Source of the DNA: a virus
DNA length: 22,390 bases
Virus record (IMG/VR): IMGVR_UViG_3300042879_000609
Coordinates: 1 to 22,390 of that record
Direction: 5' to 3' (one strand)
The notes under the pieces are model-generated. The model saw only the letters and a program-made list of their open reading frames with translations. It ran no database searches and had not been told where the DNA came from. Below, piece by piece: positions 7,325 through 21,806 of this stretch (its first letter is position 1; each line of letters begins with the position of its first letter). Position numbers and translations under genes: made by a program.

Positions 7325-8623
7325 TTACACGTATGAATATTTGCCGTAATTGGGCGAAAGTTCGAAATACATCCGCATCATGATAGCATCAGCGTAGTCA
7401 GGTGACACTCCGTGCATGGCTTTTATTTCGTCTTTTCCTGTGACTGCGAGCTTTCCATCGGCTTCTGGTCGTTTGCGCCTGATCATGTCGAGTTCTTTTG
7501 TAATGATGTCGCGTTTTGGAACTGGCAGAATGACCTTGCCTTGCTCAATAAGTTCGGCGAGCTTGTAATAGCATTCGGCTTTTTGATTTGTGAACTTGTC
7601 AGGTTGCCTTGCTTTTGAGCCATTGAGAAATCCGCGACACTTTAGCATATCGACTGCGCCACCGCCCACGCCATCTTCATCCACGATAACATTCGAGAGC
7701 TTTACATTGTGTTTATTGATTGCATTCCGAATGGCTGCGACTACTGTTGTAATTGGTTCTTTGCGTAATTCGTGAATCTCGAATAGTTGAAGTCCTTTCC
7801 ATACGCAAATGATTGTCCTATCCTTTCCAAGCCGTGCGATGTCGGCACTGATAAACATTTCACCCGTGCCAACTTCCTCACGAAAGCACCGAAGTAAGTC
7901 ATCGTATTTGAAAAGCCAGTCGATACTTTCATCAAAATCCCAGTCACCATGCAACAACCTTTTGCGGTCGGTTTCAGGCAATGACGCAAGCGTTTCTAAA
8001 TAACTTTCTGGAAGGTGTGGATTGTCACCTGGCAAAGCCTGAATAAAAGCGTAACGCTCAGGGAGTAATTGATTGCGCCACGGGTCGTAAAACTCATTAT
8101 ATAGCCATCCTTTCGAGGGGTTGCACGTTAGTAGTGCTTTCGGCTTTATATCAAATTCGCGTAGCTTAAAACGAACACGAGAGCGTAACACGTCAACGGC
8201 TTTCTTTGTGACTTGCGAAACTTCGTCTACGTAAAAGTCAGTAAGTTCAAGACCGCCTAAACTATCGAACACAGGATCTGATGGATATTGAAATAAGTCT
8301 TTGAGAATAATTTCGGACTTATTGAAAAACGTAATCACGTTGGTTGAGCCGTTCAATTCATAGTCGCGCCCTGCCCGAAGGTTCATCATTGAAGCGACTT
8401 CAAAGAAAGTTTTTACTGTGGTTTTTTTTAAGGTGTCGAGTTTGCTCCTGCCTATTAAACCACGAGAGCCTGCATAGTGCAAGCGTCTCATGATTTGCCA
8501 AGCGCACCCTGTGAATGATTTTGAACCACCAGCCGCGCCACCGTAAAGAACTATCTCACAAGGCGAATCGGTAGCAAGTGCCTTGAAGCATTCGATTTGT
8601 TTGGGTAGGTATTCAATACGCAT
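7325..8623 (-). CDS. terL: Terminase large subunit
   Basis: 432 residues, normal for a phage large terminase. ATPase: Walker A GGAAGGSKS at 28-36, Walker B LTDFYVDE at 127-134 with catalytic Glu 134, coupling motif LLTCNPS at 164-170. LLHGDW at 223-228 closes the ATPase part. Nuclease (RNase H fold): ISADIARLGKD with Asp 261, VDEDGVGGG at 314-322, and SPDYADA at 407-413. It cuts concatemeric DNA and pumps it through the portal. Oddly, it is on the strand opposite the small-terminase candidate and all virion genes, and 11 bases overlap the preceding DnaA-like gene. All active-site motifs are intact. Confidence 0.95.
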   Translation of the reverse strand: MRIEYLPKQIECFKALATDSPCEIVLYGGAAGGSKSFTGCAWQIMRRLHYAGSRGLIGRSKLDTLKKTTVKTFFEVASMMNLRAGRDYELNGSTNVITFFNKSEIILKDLFQYPSDPVFDSLGGLELTDFYVDEVSQVTKKAVDVLRSRVRFKLREFDIKPKALLTCNPSKGWLYNEFYDPWRNQLLPERYAFIQALPGDNPHLPESYLETLASLPETDRKRLLHGDWDFDESIDWLFKYDDLLRCFREEVGTGEMFISADIARLGKDRTIICVWKGLQLFEIHELRKEPITTVVAAIRNAINKHNVKLSNVIVDEDGVGGGAVDMLKCRGFLNGSKARQPDKFTNQKAECYYKLAELIEQGKVILPVPKRDIITKELDMIRRKRPEADGKLAVTGKDEIKAMHGVSPDYADAIMMRMYFELSPNYGKYSYV

Positions 8624-10708: not shown

Positions 10709-10729
10709 AACTATTTTTTATTGAGCAAA

Positions 10730-11014
10730 ATGGCAGCACCACGAGACGCAAACGGCAGATTGATGAAAGGACACTCAGGATTGAAACCGAAAGGGGCGAT
10801 TCATGAGAAGACTGAAATGTGGCACAAGCTCGGTGAGTTCATCGTGACAGAGGGAGCGCATAGGGCGATGGGCATTCTTATGGAAATGGAGAATGAAGAG
10901 TTCTTAAAGAATTACATGGCAATGCTCGAATACTTCAAACCAAAGCAAGCGCGCAACATTCACTCAGGTGACGAGCAGAATCCTGTTGTCATTAACATTC
11001 ACGGTAATATATGA
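10730..11014 (+). CDS. Candidate terminase small subunit
   Basis: 94 residues from the ATG at 10730; a TTG three codons earlier is less likely. The basic N-terminus (RDANGRLMKGHSGLKPKG) is followed by helices MWHKLGEFIVTEGAHRAMGI and LKNYMAMLEYFKPKQARNIH. The pattern G...........W..LGE(F/W)...EG........L....F...Y...LEYFKPK.AR is found in Bacteroidota phages next to packaging genes and is often taken as the DNA-recognition small terminase. Evidence is positional and by pattern, not by a known fold. It is separated from terL by the whole divergent region, which is unusual. The end overlaps the next start as ATGA. Confidence 0.5.
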   Translation: MAAPRDANGRLMKGHSGLKPKGAIHEKTEMWHKLGEFIVTEGAHRAMGILMEMENEEFLKNYMAMLEYFKPKQARNIHSGDEQNPVVINIHGNI

Positions 11015-11598
11015 AACAATACCACGTTCCGAAATCAGTCGAGGGCATAACCTTGAAGCAATACGTACAATTCTACACGGCAAAAACCGACATCGAGAAA
11101 GTATCAGCGGCTATTCAAAAGCCAGTTGCCGAATGTGAGCAGTTGCAATTTAGCGCGATTGAAACGATAATAGCTTTGTTCATTGGAGCTTGCCAAAGTG
11201 GTGCATCAAAACATGAGCAAACTTTCTTTGATGGTGACGTGCGCATGGGGTTTATTCCTGACTTGAATATGTTAACATTCAAAGAGTACATTGACTTGGA
11301 TTCTTTCACTTCACAGATATACAAGCAACCTGTTGAGCCTGAGAATTACAAATACTTCATTGACTTATTTTGTATCTTATTTCGCCCTGTTAAAGATGTT
11401 TGGGGCAAGCGTTATGAATTAGAGCCTTACGATATTCAGACCGTTCCAAACTATCGAGAGATCATTGAACGCATTACAATGGACCGCGTGAATGGTGCGC
11501 TGATTTTTTTTTCGACTATCGCAAACGAACTCTTTCAAGATTCGCTGACTTATTTGGAGAATCAGATGATGGAAGCGGTGAGGGAAATTGGGGGTTAA
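11011..11598 (+). CDS. Tail-assembly-chaperone-like protein, short (0-frame) form
   Basis: 195 residues. Features include ITLKQYVQFYTAKTDIEKVS near the start, DGDVRMGFIPDLNMLTFKEY in the middle, FIDLFCILFRPV and a helical end (GALIFFSTIANELFQDSLTY). The series (ITL.QY, GFIPDL..(L/I)T..EYIDLD, (V/I)L(Y/F)RP, GA..FF) is characteristic of a Bacteroidota phage protein encoded before tail genes. It is followed by an overlapping -1 ORF, the gene arrangement of tail-assembly chaperones such as lambda G/GT. The role of coating the tape measure before tail-tube assembly is inferred. It is coupled to the small-terminase candidate by ATGA. Confidence 0.6.
   Translation: MKQYHVPKSVEGITLKQYVQFYTAKTDIEKVSAAIQKPVAECEQLQFSAIETIIALFIGACQSGASKHEQTFFDGDVRMGFIPDLNMLTFKEYIDLDSFTSQIYKQPVEPENYKYFIDLFCILFRPVKDVWGKRYELEPYDIQTVPNYREIIERITMDRVNGALIFFSTIANELFQDSLTYLENQMMEAVREIGG
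11505..11511 (+). other. Slippery heptamer T_TTT_TTT for -1 ribosomal frameshift
   Basis: In the 0 frame the codons are ATT TTT TTT TCG (11503-11514), so the heptamer T TTT TTT is phased exactly as X_XXY_YYZ requires, within a run of nine T. The -1 frame has no stop from 11469 to 11775, whereas the 0 frame stops at 11596. Confidence 0.65.
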
Positions 11599-11777
11599 AT
11601 CCGTTATCTAAATACGGGTGGGTTCATGTGCTTGAAGGAATTACCGAGCGCGACATGTCGAAGTGGGATATTGTACTAAACAAGACAGCGTGGGAAGTGT
11701 TCACTCACATGACTTATTTGAAGGATTACAACGCAGAGCAGAAACGATTATTTGAATTAAGCAAGCATGGTCACTAA
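11511..11777 (+). CDS. -1 frame extension of the tail-assembly chaperone (long form)
   Basis: After slipping at 11511 the -1 frame adds about 88 residues to the first 167, giving a ~255-residue product. The end (NPLSKYGWVHVLEGITERDM, then KWDIVLNKTAWEVFTHMTYL) resembles the second tail-chaperone ORF of Bacteroidota phages (GW...i..LA..D..k.d.v.......e....L.y.k). There is no convincing start codon of its own near the front of this frame, and its stop overlaps the fibre gene by 11 bases. It also fills the only gap in the operon (11599-11766). An internal GTG start near 11634 is the main alternative. Confidence 0.6.
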   Translation, partial: FDYRKRTLSRFADLFGESDDGSGEGNWGLNPLSKYGWVHVLEGITERDMSKWDIVLNKTAWEVFTHMTYLKDYNAEQKRLFELSKHGH

Positions 11778-14271
11778 TATATCATACAACGTAATCATTG
11801 ACAGGCTAAAGGCTTTCGCCGCTGGTCACTATTTGATTAAACACTTTTCACATGGTCAGATTGATTTGCGCTATTTAGAACAAGGCGCAGACTATTACCC
11901 GTGGATGCACGTAATACCCGGCACGATTAACCCAGCAGAAGGTTTGCGTGAGTATTCGTTTGACATAACATTCAGCGACTTGACACGTGACAAAGAGCAT
12001 GAGTCAGAATACATACGTGAAGCGATAAGCGACTGCACGAGGTTGGCTGAAGACTTGCTTGCTGAAATAAAGAACGGCAACACCTTATTCGATTCGAGCG
12101 TTCAGATAGTCGATGGAAGTTCGATTACTCCATTCATTCATGAGGATACTCACACGCTCACAGGTGTTACACTTTCGCTTTCAATTCGCGTGCCTTGGGA
12201 TTGGTCGGCTTGCGACATTCCTGCGGACTACGCTCCAGGCGGTTCAAGTTCGGGCGGTGGAGCATTTGGCGGTTGTTGCGTGACCTTGCAAGTTGGCGGC
12301 ATTGATAACATCGACCAAAGTTTATTGAATTTGATTGCAGGCACTAACATGACTATCACAGATAACGGCGATGGCTCTGTGACATTTGACTCAACGGGCG
12401 GTGGTGGTGGTGGATTGCTTTTAGCTTTACCATTTACGACTGATCACATTAGCGCAACGGGAAACGAGTATTTAATAGGTGACGTTGTTTATTATAGTGG
12501 CAACGTGTATCGCTGCATTGCTAACAATGATTCAATACTTCCAACGGATGCAAATTATTGGTTAAATCTCGGTGCTGGTTATCCACTTATACAACAGCCA
12601 GCGGACTGGGATTCAACAAGCGGCAATAATCAAATACTGAATAAACCAACTCTCTCAACGGTTGCGACTTCGGGCGATTACAATGATTTGATAAACCTTC
12701 CAACGCTTGCAACCGTAGCGACAACAGGCGATTACAACGACTTAAATAATTTACCTACAATTCCTGCGGCACAGGTCAATTCGGACTGGAATGCAATTAG
12801 TGGTGTTGCTGAAATATTGAACAAGCCGACATTTGGTTCTGTTACATCGGTTGGTCTTACTGTTCCATCTGCTTTCAGTGTAACAGGTTCACCAATTACC
12901 ACATCGGGAACGCTTGCGATTTCAGGTGCAGGACTTGCAACCCAATATGTTCGCGGTGATGGGCAACTTGCTAATTTTCCAACAACAAGCGGCGGCGGTT
13001 CATCAGTTAGTTATTATTTGAACGGCTCAATAAATCAGGGAACAATAGGCGGCAGCACTTACTACCAAATGAGCAAGACAGCGGTATTTGGTCCGGGTAC
13101 AGATTTCACGCGAACCAACGCACAGGGCAATGGTTTAATTGCTCAATTTATTACGGATGCTAATGATCCGAATGTGTTGTTAATTCCGGGAGGTAACTTC
13201 AATCTTGAGTTTTATTTTAGTGCTTCTTCAGGTGGCGGTTCCCCTTCGTTCTATGTTGAATTATATAAGTATGATGGCAGCACCAGCACATTCACGCTAT
13301 TGGCTACGGATGTTGCAACGCCCGAAGGCATTACACAAGGCACTGTAATAGATGCGTACTTCACAGCACTTGCAGTACCTCCTACGGTTATGACTTTAAC
13401 CGATAGATTGGCTGTGCGTGTATTTGTTACTACATCGGGTCGCACTTTAGTACTGCATACTGAAAATTCGCATTTGTGTCAAGTAATAACCACGCTAAGC
13501 ACTGGCATCAATGCAATCAATGGTATTACATCGCAGGTTCAAAACCTTGCAACTGGCACGGCAGGAAGTGATTTCGCAATCAGTAGTACGGGCAGCACGC
13601 ACACATTCAATTTACCAACAGCCAGCGCATCAAATCGCGGAGCGTTAAGTAGTGCTGATTGGTCAACTTTCAACGGCAAGCAAAACAGCGTTGGATTTAC
13701 AACGGTGGGTAATAACATTGCTACGCTTGCGAATCCGAGCGCAATCACTTACCTAAAGATAGCAGCAGACAATACTGTTAGCGCGATAACTGCGGCACAA
13801 CTCAAAACTGATTTGGGTATTCCTTCGGGCACGATGTTTCAACTTGTTACAACATCAGACCAAGCAAGTAATAGCACCGCCGCAATAGTTGTATCTGATA
13901 TAACTGGTTTGACCTTTCCGATTACAAGTGGAAAAAAGTATAAATTCAAAGCATTGTTATTGCATACAGCAAATTCAACAAGTGTGAGTGTACGTGTAGG
14001 AATAAATGCTAATGTAGCGGTTACAAGTGTGAATCAACAGATAAGTATAGCTACTGCGACAGGAGCGCAAAATCAATGGTTTAATCTTAATTCGCTCGGT
14101 GTAGTCACATTTGCAGGTGCTAATGCAACTGCACAAATGATGTCAACAGTTGAAGGTATATTGATTGCAAACAATAGCGGAATTGCGGCTATACAATTCA
14201 GCAAGGGTGCGGCAAACACTGGTATATTAACAATCAAAGCAGGATCAATTCTTGAATATTTCGAAATATGA
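11767..14271 (+). CDS. Tail fibre / receptor-binding protein with fused N-terminal virion domain
   Basis: 834 residues. 1-155 is a globular domain (REYSFDITFSDLTRDKEHES ... ending VPWDWSACDIP) that in Bacteroidota phages commonly occurs as a separate protein after the chaperone genes. Gly/Ser linkers follow at 157-170 and 210-216. GTNMTITDNGDGSVTF (192-207) is a fibre shaft motif. 236-270 (IGDVVYYSGNVYRCIANNDS ... YWLNLG) resembles a carbohydrate-binding module of the chitin-binding type 3 shape. 280-375 has repeats DW..(I/T)SG...ILNKPT and GDYNDLxNLPT. ASNRGALSSADWSTFNGKQ is a fibre repeat often met in phages. The C-terminal ~145 residues form a likely receptor-binding head ending ILTIKAGSILEYFEI. 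No protease or intramolecular chaperone motif is seen. Confidence 0.8.
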   Translation: MVTNISYNVIIDRLKAFAAGHYLIKHFSHGQIDLRYLEQGADYYPWMHVIPGTINPAEGLREYSFDITFSDLTRDKEHESEYIREAISDCTRLAEDLLAEIKNGNTLFDSSVQIVDGSSITPFIHEDTHTLTGVTLSLSIRVPWDWSACDIPADYAPGGSSSGGGAFGGCCVTLQVGGIDNIDQSLLNLIAGTNMTITDNGDGSVTFDSTGGGGGGLLLALPFTTDHISATGNEYLIGDVVYYSGNVYRCIANNDSILPTDANYWLNLGAGYPLIQQPADWDSTSGNNQILNKPTLSTVATSGDYNDLINLPTLATVATTGDYNDLNNLPTIPAAQVNSDWNAISGVAEILNKPTFGSVTSVGLTVPSAFSVTGSPITTSGTLAISGAGLATQYVRGDGQLANFPTTSGGGSSVSYYLNGSINQGTIGGSTYYQMSKTAVFGPGTDFTRTNAQGNGLIAQFITDANDPNVLLIPGGNFNLEFYFSASSGGGSPSFYVELYKYDGSTSTFTLLATDVATPEGITQGTVIDAYFTALAVPPTVMTLTDRLAVRVFVTTSGRTLVLHTENSHLCQVITTLSTGINAINGITSQVQNLATGTAGSDFAISSTGSTHTFNLPTASASNRGALSSADWSTFNGKQNSVGFTTVGNNIATLANPSAITYLKIAADNTVSAITAAQLKTDLGIPSGTMFQLVTTSDQASNSTAAIVVSDITGLTFPITSGKKYKFKALLLHTANSTSVSVRVGINANVAVTSVNQQISIATATGAQNQWFNLNSLGVVTFAGANATAQMMSTVEGILIANNSGIAAIQFSKGAANTGILTIKAGSILEYFEI
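12649..12756 (+). repeat. Two 54-base tandem repeats in the fibre shaft
   Basis: The units encode TLSTVATSGDYNDLINLP and TLATVATTGDYNDLNNLP, 15 of 18 residues identical, but many third codon positions differ, so the repeat is held by protein selection rather than being new. Related half-repeats (DWDSTSGNNQILNKP, DWNAISGVAEILNKP) flank it. Confidence 0.85.
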
Positions 14272-16456: not shown

Positions 16457-19400
16457 ATGCAGAACGAAGTACAACTCATAGTTAAGTCGGGAGGTATTGT
16501 TTACCAAACGAATCAATATACTATTGCTGGAACTATTATTAACGGAGCAACAACCTTCAGCTTAAACTCGGTATTAAGTTCTCCATTATGGTTATGTATT
16601 TCATCAATACAACCAAAAATAGGCGGCACGTTTTCAGTGCCTGATGCGGATGTAAACAATACGGCAATTATTATTGGTTATGATCCATCCACTTGCGTTA
16701 TTACGCTCGACGTTCCTATTGTTTGGTCAGGTGTTGGAAACCCTGCAACCGATGTGTTTATAGATGTTGCAATCAATACTGAAGTAGAATATTTCCTTGA
16801 CTTATATCCGAACGAATCCATTTCGCTTTCATATCAATTTACCGACTTAAATAACTTTAGTCAGATAGGCACGTTTTCGCGTGACTTCAGGATACCAGCG
16901 ACAAAGAAAAATGTCGAAGCACTTGGACCGTTATACGATTATAATTTCGTGGACGATGTTCAATCATTCAGCAGAAAGTACACGGCTGAATTGAGGGTTG
17001 ACACGATACCGATTTCACGCGGTTACATCCGGGTTATGGCGGCTTACAAGCAACAGGATTTTTTGAGTGATTTCCAAGTTGCATTTTATAGTGAAGCTCC
17101 GAATTTCGTGAAGTCGATTGGTGAGAAAAAATTAAAGGACTTGACTGTATTGCCAACACTTTCCGAGCCAGTTGTATTTACTAATGTCACGACAATAAAC
17201 AGCACACGTATTTGGGCATTAATTGATCGTGGTCAAGGTGGCAAAGCGTTTAGTGAGACTGGAGAAACAAATACCCGACCAACGCAAAATGATGCACAAC
17301 CACTATATGCAGCTGATTTAACTCCATGCTTGCGATCCGACTATATACTTCAGCAAATTTTTAATGATGCTGGCTTCGAGCTTGACGCGAGTAGCTTATT
17401 AACTACATTAAGCGATTACTATGTACCTTGGGTTAATACGGAGTCATTAAACTTCAATTTCGCGGTAAGTGACAATGCGCTGCGTGTTACGAATAGCACG
17501 GCAATTAATCACACTACGGATTTTGGCTGGCAAATCATACCATTAGATAATGAAGATTACGACAATGGAATGAATTACAATGCAGCGACTTACACATATA
17601 CAACACCTTATACAGGGTATTATTCATTTCGTTTATATTTTACTTTTGAAAACGCTTCTTGTTGGACGAGTATACAGCTTCGATTAAAGTACAATGATGG
17701 CTCAAATGATTATTATATTAGTTTCGGAACTCATCAACCTATTGTTTTTGATGGTGTATTAGGATATACGTCAGGGGATTTATTTTTTAGCGCAGGATGG
17801 ACTATTCAATTTCAATATTTAGGCTACGACAACTACAGTTCAGTTGATTGCCCTACTCCAAATGTTGATTTAATTGCAAACGGCTTTGTATTAGAATTAA
17901 TGAATTTGAAGCCATTGACTGGTCCTGACATTATTTACTCAAATAACGCACCTGACATTAAGCAAATTGATTTCGTTTCAGATATAATTAAGATGCACAA
18001 TCTTGCGGTTATTCCTGATGCTGCTGGTGTAAATAAACTTTTGCTTGAACCGATGTCGACTTATTTAGGCAGCGGCTCAACACTTGACTGGACTAAGAAA
18101 CTCGACACGTCAAAGGACATAGTCATTAAAGGAACTGATGACATCAAAAAGTCAAAGTTGTATTTCACTTATTCGGCAGGGCAAGATACTTATTCAAAAC
18201 TATTCGTTGACCAAGGGCGCATATACGGTGACTACAAACTTGAACCGTACACCGTTGATGCAAATCAAGTACCGAGCGAATTTCTGACAGGCAACACAGA
18301 AGTAAAGTTAATTGCTCAATCGACACCTTCAACACAAGTCAATGGAAGTAGTTTAATCTGCCCACGCTTTTGGACTCAAAGCGGTGACGAGCCACCGAAG
18401 TTCACAGCTCCCGGCTTACGCTTTTTGTATTGGTCGGAAACCGCGCCAATTTATTTATATGATGAGGGTTTTGGTGGTTCGGTAGTTTACCAAAACGTGC
18501 CATTGGTAAATCATTACAACGACACGAGTGGTTTTAATCCAAACTTTGCAGGGCAATACGATTTGAACTGGGCACCTGAGACTCCACTTCATGACTACAC
18601 GATGAATCCTCAGAACAATTTATTCACGCAATACTGGCGCGATTATTTGGATTCAATTTATAGCGATGATGCGAGAATACTTGAAGCAAGTTTCGCGTTG
18701 AATAACACCGATATATTGAGTCTAAACTTCGGTGATTACATATTTGTGAAAGACGCTTATTGGCGAATCATTGAGTTAAGTGACTATAAAATGGGGCAAT
18801 ATGAAAGCACCCGTGTAAAGTTGCTTAAGGTTTCACCCGGCGCACCTGCAAAGCCTGCCTGTGATATTATTCCTGTATCAAATAACCAAGATGGTTCAGT
18901 AAATTTTGAAACCCCTGCTGGTGCAAGTGTATCAGCCACTCAATACTGTTGTAATTACTTCAACTTTACATGGAGCGTTAACACAAATCTTTGTTACGGA
19001 AAGGTTCGTGACAGACCAGGAATAACAAATCCGAATAACGACTCAACGGGTAAGGGTGAAATTACATCACTCAATTCGATTAGCGTTGGCGCGAATAATG
19101 TAATTACAACGGTCGGTTTGGATGCTGGCTCTTCGACATTCTCGGTGTTTGCAGGAAATGACATCAAAAGCGGTTCGAATGATAACGTGATTGCAGTCGG
19201 TGACACGCTCGAAGTTAAAGGTGATCAACGTGGCATTGCGATGTTTGGCAAATCAGTTGAAAGCGCAGTTCCTGGTTTAGTTGTCGGTGGTGGCTGGCCG
19301 CAAGACGATAGGACTTATGCGTTCAATGGTTCTCAGAGTGCAGGTACATTTATGATGTCGGAGCAGGGCACTTACGCCGCTACACTTGGCACTCTTGAAT

Positions 19401-19729: not shown

Positions 19730-19899
19730 GAAACGATATAGGTATGTCTTTGGCTTTGTTGAAAGCTGGAATAAAATGCAGGCGTGAGGGTTATTCTATA
19801 AATCGCAGGCGCAAAATCGTCAAAACTTCCGTTATCTATTTAGTGCACACTACATCGTGGGCATTGATATTATTCGGACTCTATAAAATGATTTGGTAA
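19726..19899 (+). CDS. Small basic single-span membrane protein
   Basis: 57 residues: MRNDIGMSLALLKAGIKCRR, a basic stretch (NRRRKIVK), then a hydrophobic segment (VIYLVHTTSWALILFGLY) ending KMIW. Positive residues before the span suggest the N-terminus stays in the cytoplasm. It overlaps the tail gene by 4 bases (ATGA) and the tape-measure start by 1 base (TAATG), so it is translated as part of the tail operon. Possible roles are a membrane-inserting tail component or a small lysis/injection helper; neither is proven. Confidence 0.6.
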   Translation: MRNDIGMSLALLKAGIKCRREGYSINRRRKIVKTSVIYLVHTTSWALILFGLYKMIW

Positions 19900-21806
19900 T
19901 GGCTACAAATAACTATGTTGTAAGTTTAAGTATTGACGATAAGGGCGCGGTTGCAGCGGTCAACGACATGACCAAAGCACTCGACAAAGCGGACAGCAGT
20001 TCACAATCGCTAAAAGCTCAATTACGTCAAATGCAACAGGAGCTACAAAAGCTCGATGTGGGCAGTGCCGAGTTTCAAAAGTTGTCGCGTGAAGCTGGGG
20101 AATTAAAAGACCGAATTAACGATGCAAGTGAAGCAGTACGGGCAAATGCTGGCAGTGCGTTTGAGACATTAGGCAACAACGCATCATTATTACGTCAACG
20201 GCTTTTTAGTTTAGATTTCGAGGGTGTTGGTCAATCAGTCAAGGCATTAGCCGCGAATGTAAACAACTTAAAATTTGGTGAAGCATCAAAGGGTGTTGGT
20301 TCATTAACCAGTGGATTTGGCGCGCTCGGAAAAGCGTTACTGACAAACCCAATTATTCTGATAGGTGGAGTCATTGCGTTAATCATTACGAATTTAGAAA
20401 AGCTCGCGAATGTCATTCCATTTGTGGGCAAAGCATTTGAAGTAGTTGGCGGCATCATTGATACAGTTGTTCAAGGTTTCAAAGACTTAACCGACTGGAT
20501 TAACATAACAGAAAATGCAGCGGTTGATGCGGCAAACAAATCTATTGAAGCGCAAGACGAAACGATTAAGGCGATTGATAGGAATGCCAAACGTCAAGTT
20601 GCTATTGCCAAACAATTAGGGCAAGATGTCAACGCTGCGACCATTGAAGCGGAACAAAAGAAGCTTGAAGCGTATCAAAAGACCATTGATGACATTGATA
20701 AGCTTAACGGCAAATTAACCGACGAACAAATCAAAGCAAGAAAGGCCGCATCAGAAGCTATTTTCGATATTGAAACTGCACGAATAGAACGGCAAGCGGA
20801 ACAGAATCAAAAGGACATAGCTGAGAAAGAAGCACGCGAAAAAAAGGCACAAGAAGAAGCGGAACAACGTGCAAAAGAAGCGGCACAAAAAGCAGCAGAA
20901 CGCAGACAAAAAGAGAGAGAGCAACGCGAATATGAAGCTCAATTCATCGCTGATTTATACGCTGATCAAGACGCTGAAATTGAAGCGAACAATAAGGCAC
21001 TTGCTGACAGGTTAGCTGCGATATGGCAAAAGGCAAATGAGTTAAGCCGTGCCGCACAACAACAACAAGCGGATGATGTTGAAGCGATACAATTAGATAT
21101 TGAGCAACGACTCGATGAACGTGGCAAGAGTGCAAGAGAGCTTGAAATGCAGAACTTGCAGGACAAATATTTCGAGCAAAAAACCATGCTTGAAAATGCA
21201 GGGCAAGAGACTACTGCATTAACTGAATTATATGAGTCAGAACAAAATGCAATAAAACAGAAATACGCTGATGAGGATGAAGCGCGGCAAAAAGAATTAA
21301 ATCGTAAGCGTGTGCAAATGGCAAGCGATGTCATTGGTGCTATCGCAGGACTCGATGAAGCGTTCAGCAAGAACAACAAGAAAGGAGCACGTGCCGCATT
21401 CAATCGTAACAAAGCCTATGGTATTGCACAGGCTGGTATTCAAACAGGACTTGCCGTTACGGCTGCATTAACTGCCGGGGGTAATCCTTTGAAATTAGCA
21501 ACGGGCGCACAATTCATTGAAGCAGGTATTGCGGCAGCTACGGGTATTGCACAGATAGCAAAAATTGCATCAACAAAATTCAATGAAAATGGTGGCGATG
21601 GCGGTGGCGGTGGAAGTACATCGGTGCCAAGTGTAGGCGGTGGAGGTGGTGGAAGTCAACCGAGCGTTCCTGCGTTCAATGCTTTGAATCTTGGACTATT
21701 ACAAAACAGACCAGACCAAACACCAAAGGCTTATGTACTTGCGCAAGACGTTAGTACTGCGGTTGAAGCACGCGATAAGGTTAGAGATTTAGCACGAATA
21801 AATTAA
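19899..21806 (+). CDS. Tail tape measure protein (short)
   Basis: 635 residues from the ATG at 19899; the frame is open to a TTG two codons before, but the TAATG junction fits the ATG. The start MATNNYVVSLSIDDKGAVAA is a strand, then coiled coil (LKAQLRQMQQELQKLDVGSA). A hydrophobic segment LLTNPIILIGGVIALIITNL lies near 147-166 with a second apolar stretch to ~195. Residues 210-460 are a long Ala/Glu/Lys/Gln-rich helix, and a Gly/Ser-rich region near 565-590 precedes the end KAYVLAQDVSTAVEARDKVR. This Ala/Gly-rich C-terminal part (AGGNPLKLATGAQFIEAGIA) is typical of Bacteroidota phage tape measures. At roughly 1.5 angstrom per residue, 635 residues predict a tail near 95 nm if fully helical. 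Confidence 0.8.
   Translation: MATNNYVVSLSIDDKGAVAAVNDMTKALDKADSSSQSLKAQLRQMQQELQKLDVGSAEFQKLSREAGELKDRINDASEAVRANAGSAFETLGNNASLLRQRLFSLDFEGVGQSVKALAANVNNLKFGEASKGVGSLTSGFGALGKALLTNPIILIGGVIALIITNLEKLANVIPFVGKAFEVVGGIIDTVVQGFKDLTDWINITENAAVDAANKSIEAQDETIKAIDRNAKRQVAIAKQLGQDVNAATIEAEQKKLEAYQKTIDDIDKLNGKLTDEQIKARKAASEAIFDIETARIERQAEQNQKDIAEKEAREKKAQEEAEQRAKEAAQKAAERRQKEREQREYEAQFIADLYADQDAEIEANNKALADRLAAIWQKANELSRAAQQQQADDVEAIQLDIEQRLDERGKSARELEMQNLQDKYFEQKTMLENAGQETTALTELYESEQNAIKQKYADEDEARQKELNRKRVQMASDVIGAIAGLDEAFSKNNKKGARAAFNRNKAYGIAQAGIQTGLAVTAALTAGGNPLKLATGAQFIEAGIAAATGIAQIAKIASTKFNENGGDGGGGGSTSVPSVGGGGGGSQPSVPAFNALNLGLLQNRPDQTPKAYVLAQDVSTAVEARDKVRDLARIN

Follow-up and report, generated by a model that had tools for sequence, protein, structure and literature searches.

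An invariant-length T run between two conserved frames of a probable tail-assembly-chaperone gene suggests transcriptional slippage in Bacteroidota phages

Gene content and organization of the locus

The window analysed is the whole of IMG/VR contig IMGVR_UViG_3300042879_000609, a linear sequence of 22,390 bases that is probably a fragment of a larger genome. At 11011-11777 it carries two overlapping reading frames that meet at a run of nine Ts. The features of the locus and its surroundings are as follows.

7325-8623, minus strand: large terminase gene
10721-11014, plus strand: small-terminase-like gene, directly upstream (BLASTP E 1e-8 in a single comparison, with the gene preceding the large terminase in the distant relative L026)
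11011-11598, plus strand: 0-frame gene, 195 aa, likely 'G-like' N-terminal chaperone domain (ORF with 71 diverse homologues)
11504-11512, plus strand: T9, the putative slippage run (seen in the sequence; T9 or T10 in 163/163 and 63/63 loci of two scans)
11505-11511, plus strand: in-frame heptamer T_TTT_TTT within T9 (codon phase ATT TTT TTT TCG)
11511-11777, plus strand: -1 frame C-terminal 'T-like' extension, 88 codons and TAA (open frame with homologous tails)
11513-11598, plus strand: dual-coding stretch, 0-frame C-terminus and -1 tail (both frames conserved in alignments)
11767-14271, plus strand: fibre-like next gene, whose start overlaps the tail by 11 bases (tail fiber family PHROG 9729, E 3.2e-14)
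19893-21806, plus strand: gene for the tape measure protein, roughly 8 kb downstream (matches to tape measure families of PHROG, best E 4.2e-12)

The coordinates given in the initial annotation for T9, the phase of the heptamer, both stop codons and the open -1 stretch were all found to be correct when checked against the sequence. The 0 frame begins with the ATG at 11011, where it overlaps the preceding gene by 4 bases, and ends with the stop codon at 11596-11598; the -1 frame has no stop between 11469 and 11774 and closes with the TAA at 11775-11777. The fusion of the two frames has a length of 255 aa as calculated from the sequence. A search of the -1 tail frame for ORFs of at least 50 aa starting with ATG, GTG or TTG returned none, in agreement with the earlier remark that the tail lacks a good start. 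The tail has no usable start of its own and would be reached by slippage only. The described 11-base overlap of the -1 stop with the start of the fibre gene was likewise borne out, the next ATG lying at 11767. T9 is the sole T or A run of nine or more in the contig, and among the in-frame slippery heptamers of its forward genes a single one is followed by a long -1 extension (88 codons, the others reaching at most 29).

The usual, though not defining, position of a tail assembly chaperone gene is between the major tail protein and the tape measure, and this position is not the one occupied here. The large distance from the tape measure, pointed out in the initial annotation, is also found in distant relatives, as shown by L083 with a tape measure about 7 kb downstream of the chaperone gene, and it is therefore old in the family rather than peculiar to this contig. 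In L026 one small gene lies between the large terminase and the chaperone gene, and in the Nonlabens phages the chaperone gene directly follows the large terminase. In the contig, the large terminase gene is on the opposite strand to the small-terminase-like gene and apart from it; the two are adjacent in L026.

The first approximately 210 residues of the fibre-like protein are 89-91% identical in two relatives (L008 and L015) and the remainder cannot be aligned, as expected for a variable receptor-binding part. A weak match to CBM_5_12 was observed at residues 231-256.

Conservation of the run and the -1 tail

All 14 close relatives, with 0 frames 75-100% identical, keep T9, its phase and the tail, and 39 further relatives also keep the run together with a homologous -1 tail. 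L026, only 27% identical, retains T9 and a recognisably homologous tail, and a tail search starting from the L026 tail recovered 41 loci. A tail-profile search of IMG/VR gave at least 576 matching stretches. The family loci that contain the junction have T9 in 132 cases and T10 in 31 (163/163), a set that includes repeat fetches of the same contigs and comprises 109 distinct 200-base contexts. A second scan, started from a Nonlabens protein of the sister group, yielded T9 in 62 and T10 in one of 63 loci, 44 of them distinct. Pooling both scans (226 loci) gave approximately 150 distinct junction sequences in which the run was always T9 or T10, retained down to about 25% protein identity and always accompanied by a homologous -1 tail. 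Across the 226 loci, there was no run of fewer than nine or more than ten Ts, no other heptamer replacing the run and no in-frame fusion. Elsewhere in 546 kb of family loci, one other T9 and two A9 runs occur. The arrangement of T9 with a -1 tail is far from chance.

Identity among the 71 aligned 0-frame homologues ranged from 17 to 78%, and the -1 tail protein was conserved down to approximately 12-27% identity in an alignment of tails. The alignment of homologous loci that had been proposed as a check found both the T run and the two frames conserved, upholding the -1 join of two frames claimed in the initial annotation. Homologues without the run and with the tail as a separate gene with its own start, named there as the counter-case, were not found in more than 220 loci.

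These counts bear on two explanations at the level of the DNA. Long T runs are mutable (PMC1088944), so that run length could change in replication and toggle the long form by phase variation, which we regard as very improbable: in 226/226 loci the tail and the 0 frame are out of register, leaving no genomic 'on' version, and the exact T9/T10 together with dual-coding conservation argue for constant programmed use. An assembly error, or a broken gene with a decaying or separately started tail frame, is scarcely credible. Homopolymers are error-prone in some sequencing methods, but the same run is present in the approximately 150 distinct junction sequences, which come from many metagenomes and include two sequenced isolates, and a tail protein conserved to such low identity with no usable start argues against a broken gene. 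With no in-frame 'on' version in the 226 loci, phase variation and assembly error were both rejected.

The two isolates, Nonlabens phages P12024S and P12024L (Inhavirus; gp38-gp39 and gp40-gp41), were reached through the 0-frame protein of L026 and were the only ones found with the gene. They share T9 in the same phase, a homologous -1 tail and a position next to the large terminase; they differ in having a shorter 0-frame protein (175 aa), are approximately 24% identical to the protein of the contig and are annotated there as two hypothetical proteins. The presence of the gene in Nonlabens isolates and a terminase 47.5% identical to that of Flavobacterium phage 11b sustain the initial assignment to a Bacteroidota phage. 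A scan of 84,980 species genomes of bacteria and archaea detected no prophage copies with the patterns used and so gave no link to a host; this absence may indicate that the phages are strictly virulent. In one 31,779-base contig (IMGVR_UViG_3300032288_001369; loci L018 and L034), the chaperone gene leaves one end and the tail matches again at the contig start, suggesting a probable genome of about 31.8 kb that is circularly permuted.

Predicted function of the two products

The 0-frame protein of the contig itself matched no Pfam family. Among the 71 representatives, which are relatives less than 90% identical to each other, PF10109 Phage_TAC_7 was matched by 28 (best E 8.4e-5) and the tail-protein profile PHROG 166 by 20 (best E 4.7e-8); P2 gpE also matches PHROG 166 (E 4e-7). 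Direct profile comparison (hhalign) with P2 gpE and E' found nothing. Among the viral proteins similar in structure to the AlphaFold model of the 0-frame protein (pLDDT 79) are Nonlabens I6R9M9 and Flavobacterium phage 6H R9VW65. Foldseek of this model against the PDB gave no significant match; when the model was compared with the 202 solved chains ranked highest by Foldseek, the best was the HK97 chaperone 2ob9, at a weak level of similarity (Z 3.7, rmsd 4.0, 82 residues, 11% identity). The -1 tail was modelled as all-helical (pLDDT 76), with no significant match among viral structures and no meaningful match in a Pfam search.

The gene has the G/GT-type layout, in which an overlapping second frame in -1, with no start of its own, is joined near the end of the first. 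Taken with the weak-to-moderate sequence and fold evidence, this suggests that the 0-frame protein is likely a tail assembly chaperone and that the gene is probably needed for tail building. The initial claim of a tail assembly chaperone is thus supported at a weak-to-moderate level by the Phage_TAC_7 and PHROG 166 matches in relatives and by 2ob9 as the top fold. It is unlikely, though compatible with either mechanism of slippage, that the frame join is real but belongs to a protein with another, terminase-side role in morphogenesis. Such a role would fit the location near the terminase genes and at a distance of 7-8 kb from the tape measure, which distant relatives share, as well as the missing Pfam match and weak fold match (Z 3.7) of the contig's own protein. 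It fits less well with Phage_TAC_7 in 28/71 relatives, with PHROG 166, which also covers P2 gpE, in 20/71, with a tail chaperone at the top of 202 solved chains and with a two-product layout that is itself typical of tail chaperones. Overall, 11011-11777 is best explained as a tail-assembly-chaperone gene with two products, carried by a Flavobacteriia-type phage.

Run length and codon phase

A ribosomal -1 shift requires the heptamer T_TTT_TTT alone, and slippage by RNA polymerase requires a homopolymer of hybrid length. The shortest run that contains the heptamer in frame is nine, eight or seven Ts, depending on where the run starts within a codon. Numbers of extra Ts (before, after the heptamer) among the 71 representatives were (2,0) in 38, (1,2) in 17, (1,1) in eight and (0,2) in eight. 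For the (2,0) class (38/71, phase 0), the heptamer by itself already demands nine Ts, so only phases 1 and 2 are informative on run length. In the remaining three classes, 33 representatives from several separate lineages, the run exceeds what the heptamer needs, and Ts missing on one flank of the heptamer are offset by extra Ts on the other.

If the flanks were independent, about four T7 and 14 T8 runs would be expected among the 71; none was observed. Shuffles kept every run at nine or more in 0/20,000 cases, a test that ignores relatedness. Since the relatives are not independent, the count on the tree is the more honest one: the phase state changes at least nine times, with some changes unsure on account of long branches, and the run never falls below nine.

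At the leucine codon after the heptamer, run length can be examined without interference from the amino acid that the 0 frame encodes. Where two Ts precede the heptamer and TTA or TTG would give T11, the codon was CTN in 7/7 cases, and without two preceding Ts it was TTA or TTG in 13/13; the TTA/TTG share of leucine codons in these genes overall is 68%. As this synonymous choice tracks run length, the length is bounded from both sides. Two points count against reading the run length as a signal for the polymerase: in the Nonlabens group, the T following the heptamer is also fixed by a tyrosine codon, and the -1 tail shares its coding sequence with the 0 frame. The conserved feature is the length of the run rather than its codon phase, of which all three states are seen, with phase 0 needing nine Ts for the heptamer anyway. 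Every run nonetheless contains T_TTT_TTT in frame.

Two further signals were looked for. RNA structure upstream (a terminator-like hairpin, which could promote slippage by the polymerase) or downstream (a frameshift stimulator) gave no signal at 71 loci (mean folding z 0.1-0.4), and early +1-frame stops, as a sign of tolerated U8 transcripts, were at the same level as background.

Proposed mechanism of slippage

A length kept at nine to ten Ts across codon phases favours slippage by RNA polymerase. In many bacterial genomes, selection against slippage-prone A/T runs sets in at a length of nine nucleotides (PMC1088944), and nine is also the length assumed for the RNA:DNA hybrid (PMC5574713). 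Known slippage genes use A/T runs of this kind (PMC5009743; PMC3711429), and the threshold is placed at a minimum of approximately 8-9 As or Ts in unbroken succession (PMC1088944, PMC3711429). The uninterrupted T9 or T10 of 226/226 loci lies in this range.

From these sequence patterns, we lean towards programmed transcriptional slippage as the main route, ahead of purely ribosomal -1 frameshifting. Unslipped reading of 11011-11777 would give the 195-aa chaperone. RNA polymerase would lose register on the T9 template, so that some transcripts gain one U (or lose two) and are translated by ordinary ribosomes into the long form; the -1 change at T9 would thus lead, in a minority of cases, to a 255-aa protein that carries a C-terminal domain of 88 residues. 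A -1 slip by the ribosome at T_TTT_TTT in the same run may contribute, and a mixture of the two is possible. We infer that both proteins are produced. If the two forms divide their work as in lambda G/GT, the tape measure would be coated by the 195-aa form, and the 255-aa form would recruit the tail tube protein.

The alternative, in which the ribosome alone shifts by -1 at T_TTT_TTT, as it does in lambda G/GT and P2 E/E', and the long run is a by-product of hydrophobic codons around the site or an enhancer of the slip, is a serious one that we nevertheless hold with some doubt. The in-frame heptamer is present in every locus, the phase 0 heptamer by itself requires nine Ts, and ribosomal frameshifting is the known mechanism for most tail chaperones (PMC5009743). 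Stimulatory structures downstream are frequent at ribosomal -1 sites but not required. P2 uses T_TTT_TTG without downstream structure (PMC3091744), and absence of such structure here is accordingly not evidence against the ribosome. A purely ribosomal shift would, however, be satisfied by T8 and T7 in phases 1 and 2, which were not observed, and it leaves the compensating flanks and the leucine codon choice unexplained. Nor was any relative found with T_TTT_TTC, T_TTT_TTA or A_AAA_AAG and no long run. A further point, indirect because it concerns a different type of site, is that in Flavobacterium johnsoniae the SD-dependent +1 shift at prfB is reported to be inefficient (PMC12421855). Of the slippage claim in the initial annotation, the -1 join of conserved frames stands, while the ribosome as slipping agent was not established and the conservation of run length points to RNA polymerase instead. 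The junction peptide I-F-F-F-D is identical for the ribosomal and transcriptional routes, so mass spectrometry cannot separate them and the RNA must be read.

Comparison with known systems

Lambda G/GT slips by a ribosomal -1 frameshift, whereas the slip site here is a pure T9/T10; the gene of this family also lies behind the terminase genes rather than directly before the tape measure and has no close sequence similarity to lambda G/GT. The P2 E/E+E' gene (PF10109 Phage_TAC_7) is closer in having a T-rich slip site in the same phase, a PHROG 166 profile common to gpE and relatives here, and the lack of a downstream RNA structure, for which the 71 loci here gave no signal. It differs in that its slip site T_TTT_TTG has six Ts (T6G) against T9/T10 and its E gene immediately precedes T, the gene for the tape measure; profiles of the two families compared directly gave no match. 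The -1 shift of P2 has been described as translational, without downstream structure, and published P2-like phages at 49-59% identity keep T6G (PMC3091744).

P2-like contigs were considered as a control for run length and set aside; all 80/80 have T6G, and all are near-identical to P2 and amount to one case.

In Shigella mxiE/spa13, Thermus dnaX (A9) and IS elements, an uninterrupted A or T run opens a second frame, as here. Those are not phage tail genes, and slippage was measured there and is deduced from sequence here.

Significance

The ratio of lambda G to GT is a textbook use of ribosomal frameshifting, and to our knowledge little recoding has been described in Bacteroidota. The two-frame gene is real and deeply conserved, and the surprise is the invariant length of its T run. 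Among the open-access papers listed for transcriptional slippage together with tail assembly chaperones, a review and two prediction studies, no such case was seen. We give an even chance to the broader proposal that this Bacteroidota phage family sets the dose of the long chaperone by RNA polymerase slippage on T9/T10, in place of ribosomal frameshifting, with other Flavobacteriia phages that have A9 or A8 possibly doing the same. If so, phages would have reached G/GT-type ratio control through RNA polymerase, in a family with at least 576 matching IMG/VR stretches; transcription would then offer a second way of solving the G/GT problem, and the family a measurable case of recoding in Bacteroidota. 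It would also explain the splitting of these genes into two 'hypothetical proteins' in annotations. With a T run of invariant length, the idea that the G/GT ratio arises in transcription can be tested directly, and the existence of isolates P12024S and P12024L allows the slippage question to be put directly.

Possible parallels in other Flavobacteriia phages

Other arrangements were observed in three Flavobacteriia phages. In Flavobacterium phage 6H (L310, NC_021867; 10352-10927, minus strand), the structural relative gp10 ends near T_TTT_TTC, and the tail-like frame downstream opens only after the -1-frame stop. In Flavobacterium phage 11b (L311, NC_006356; 17864-18528), the chaperone-like gp38 has an A9 (18173-18181) near its end, shortly before the large tail genes and with the tail-like gp39 frame in -1; this phage is AT-rich and long runs occur elsewhere too. 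Phage 11b gp38 is possibly the same strategy with As, in another chaperone family. The cases of 11b and Cellulophaga phage phi10:1 (L312, NC_021802; approximately 26530-27228 of the locus) are leads only. In phi10:1, an unannotated ORF in the gp085 slot, whose first part matches PHROG 2115 tail protein (E 4.4e-5), ends at an A8 (26890-26897). The tail-like gp086 frame follows this run in +1, beyond the reach of -1 ribosomal slippage, and the two frames would be joined if the transcript lost a single A from the run.
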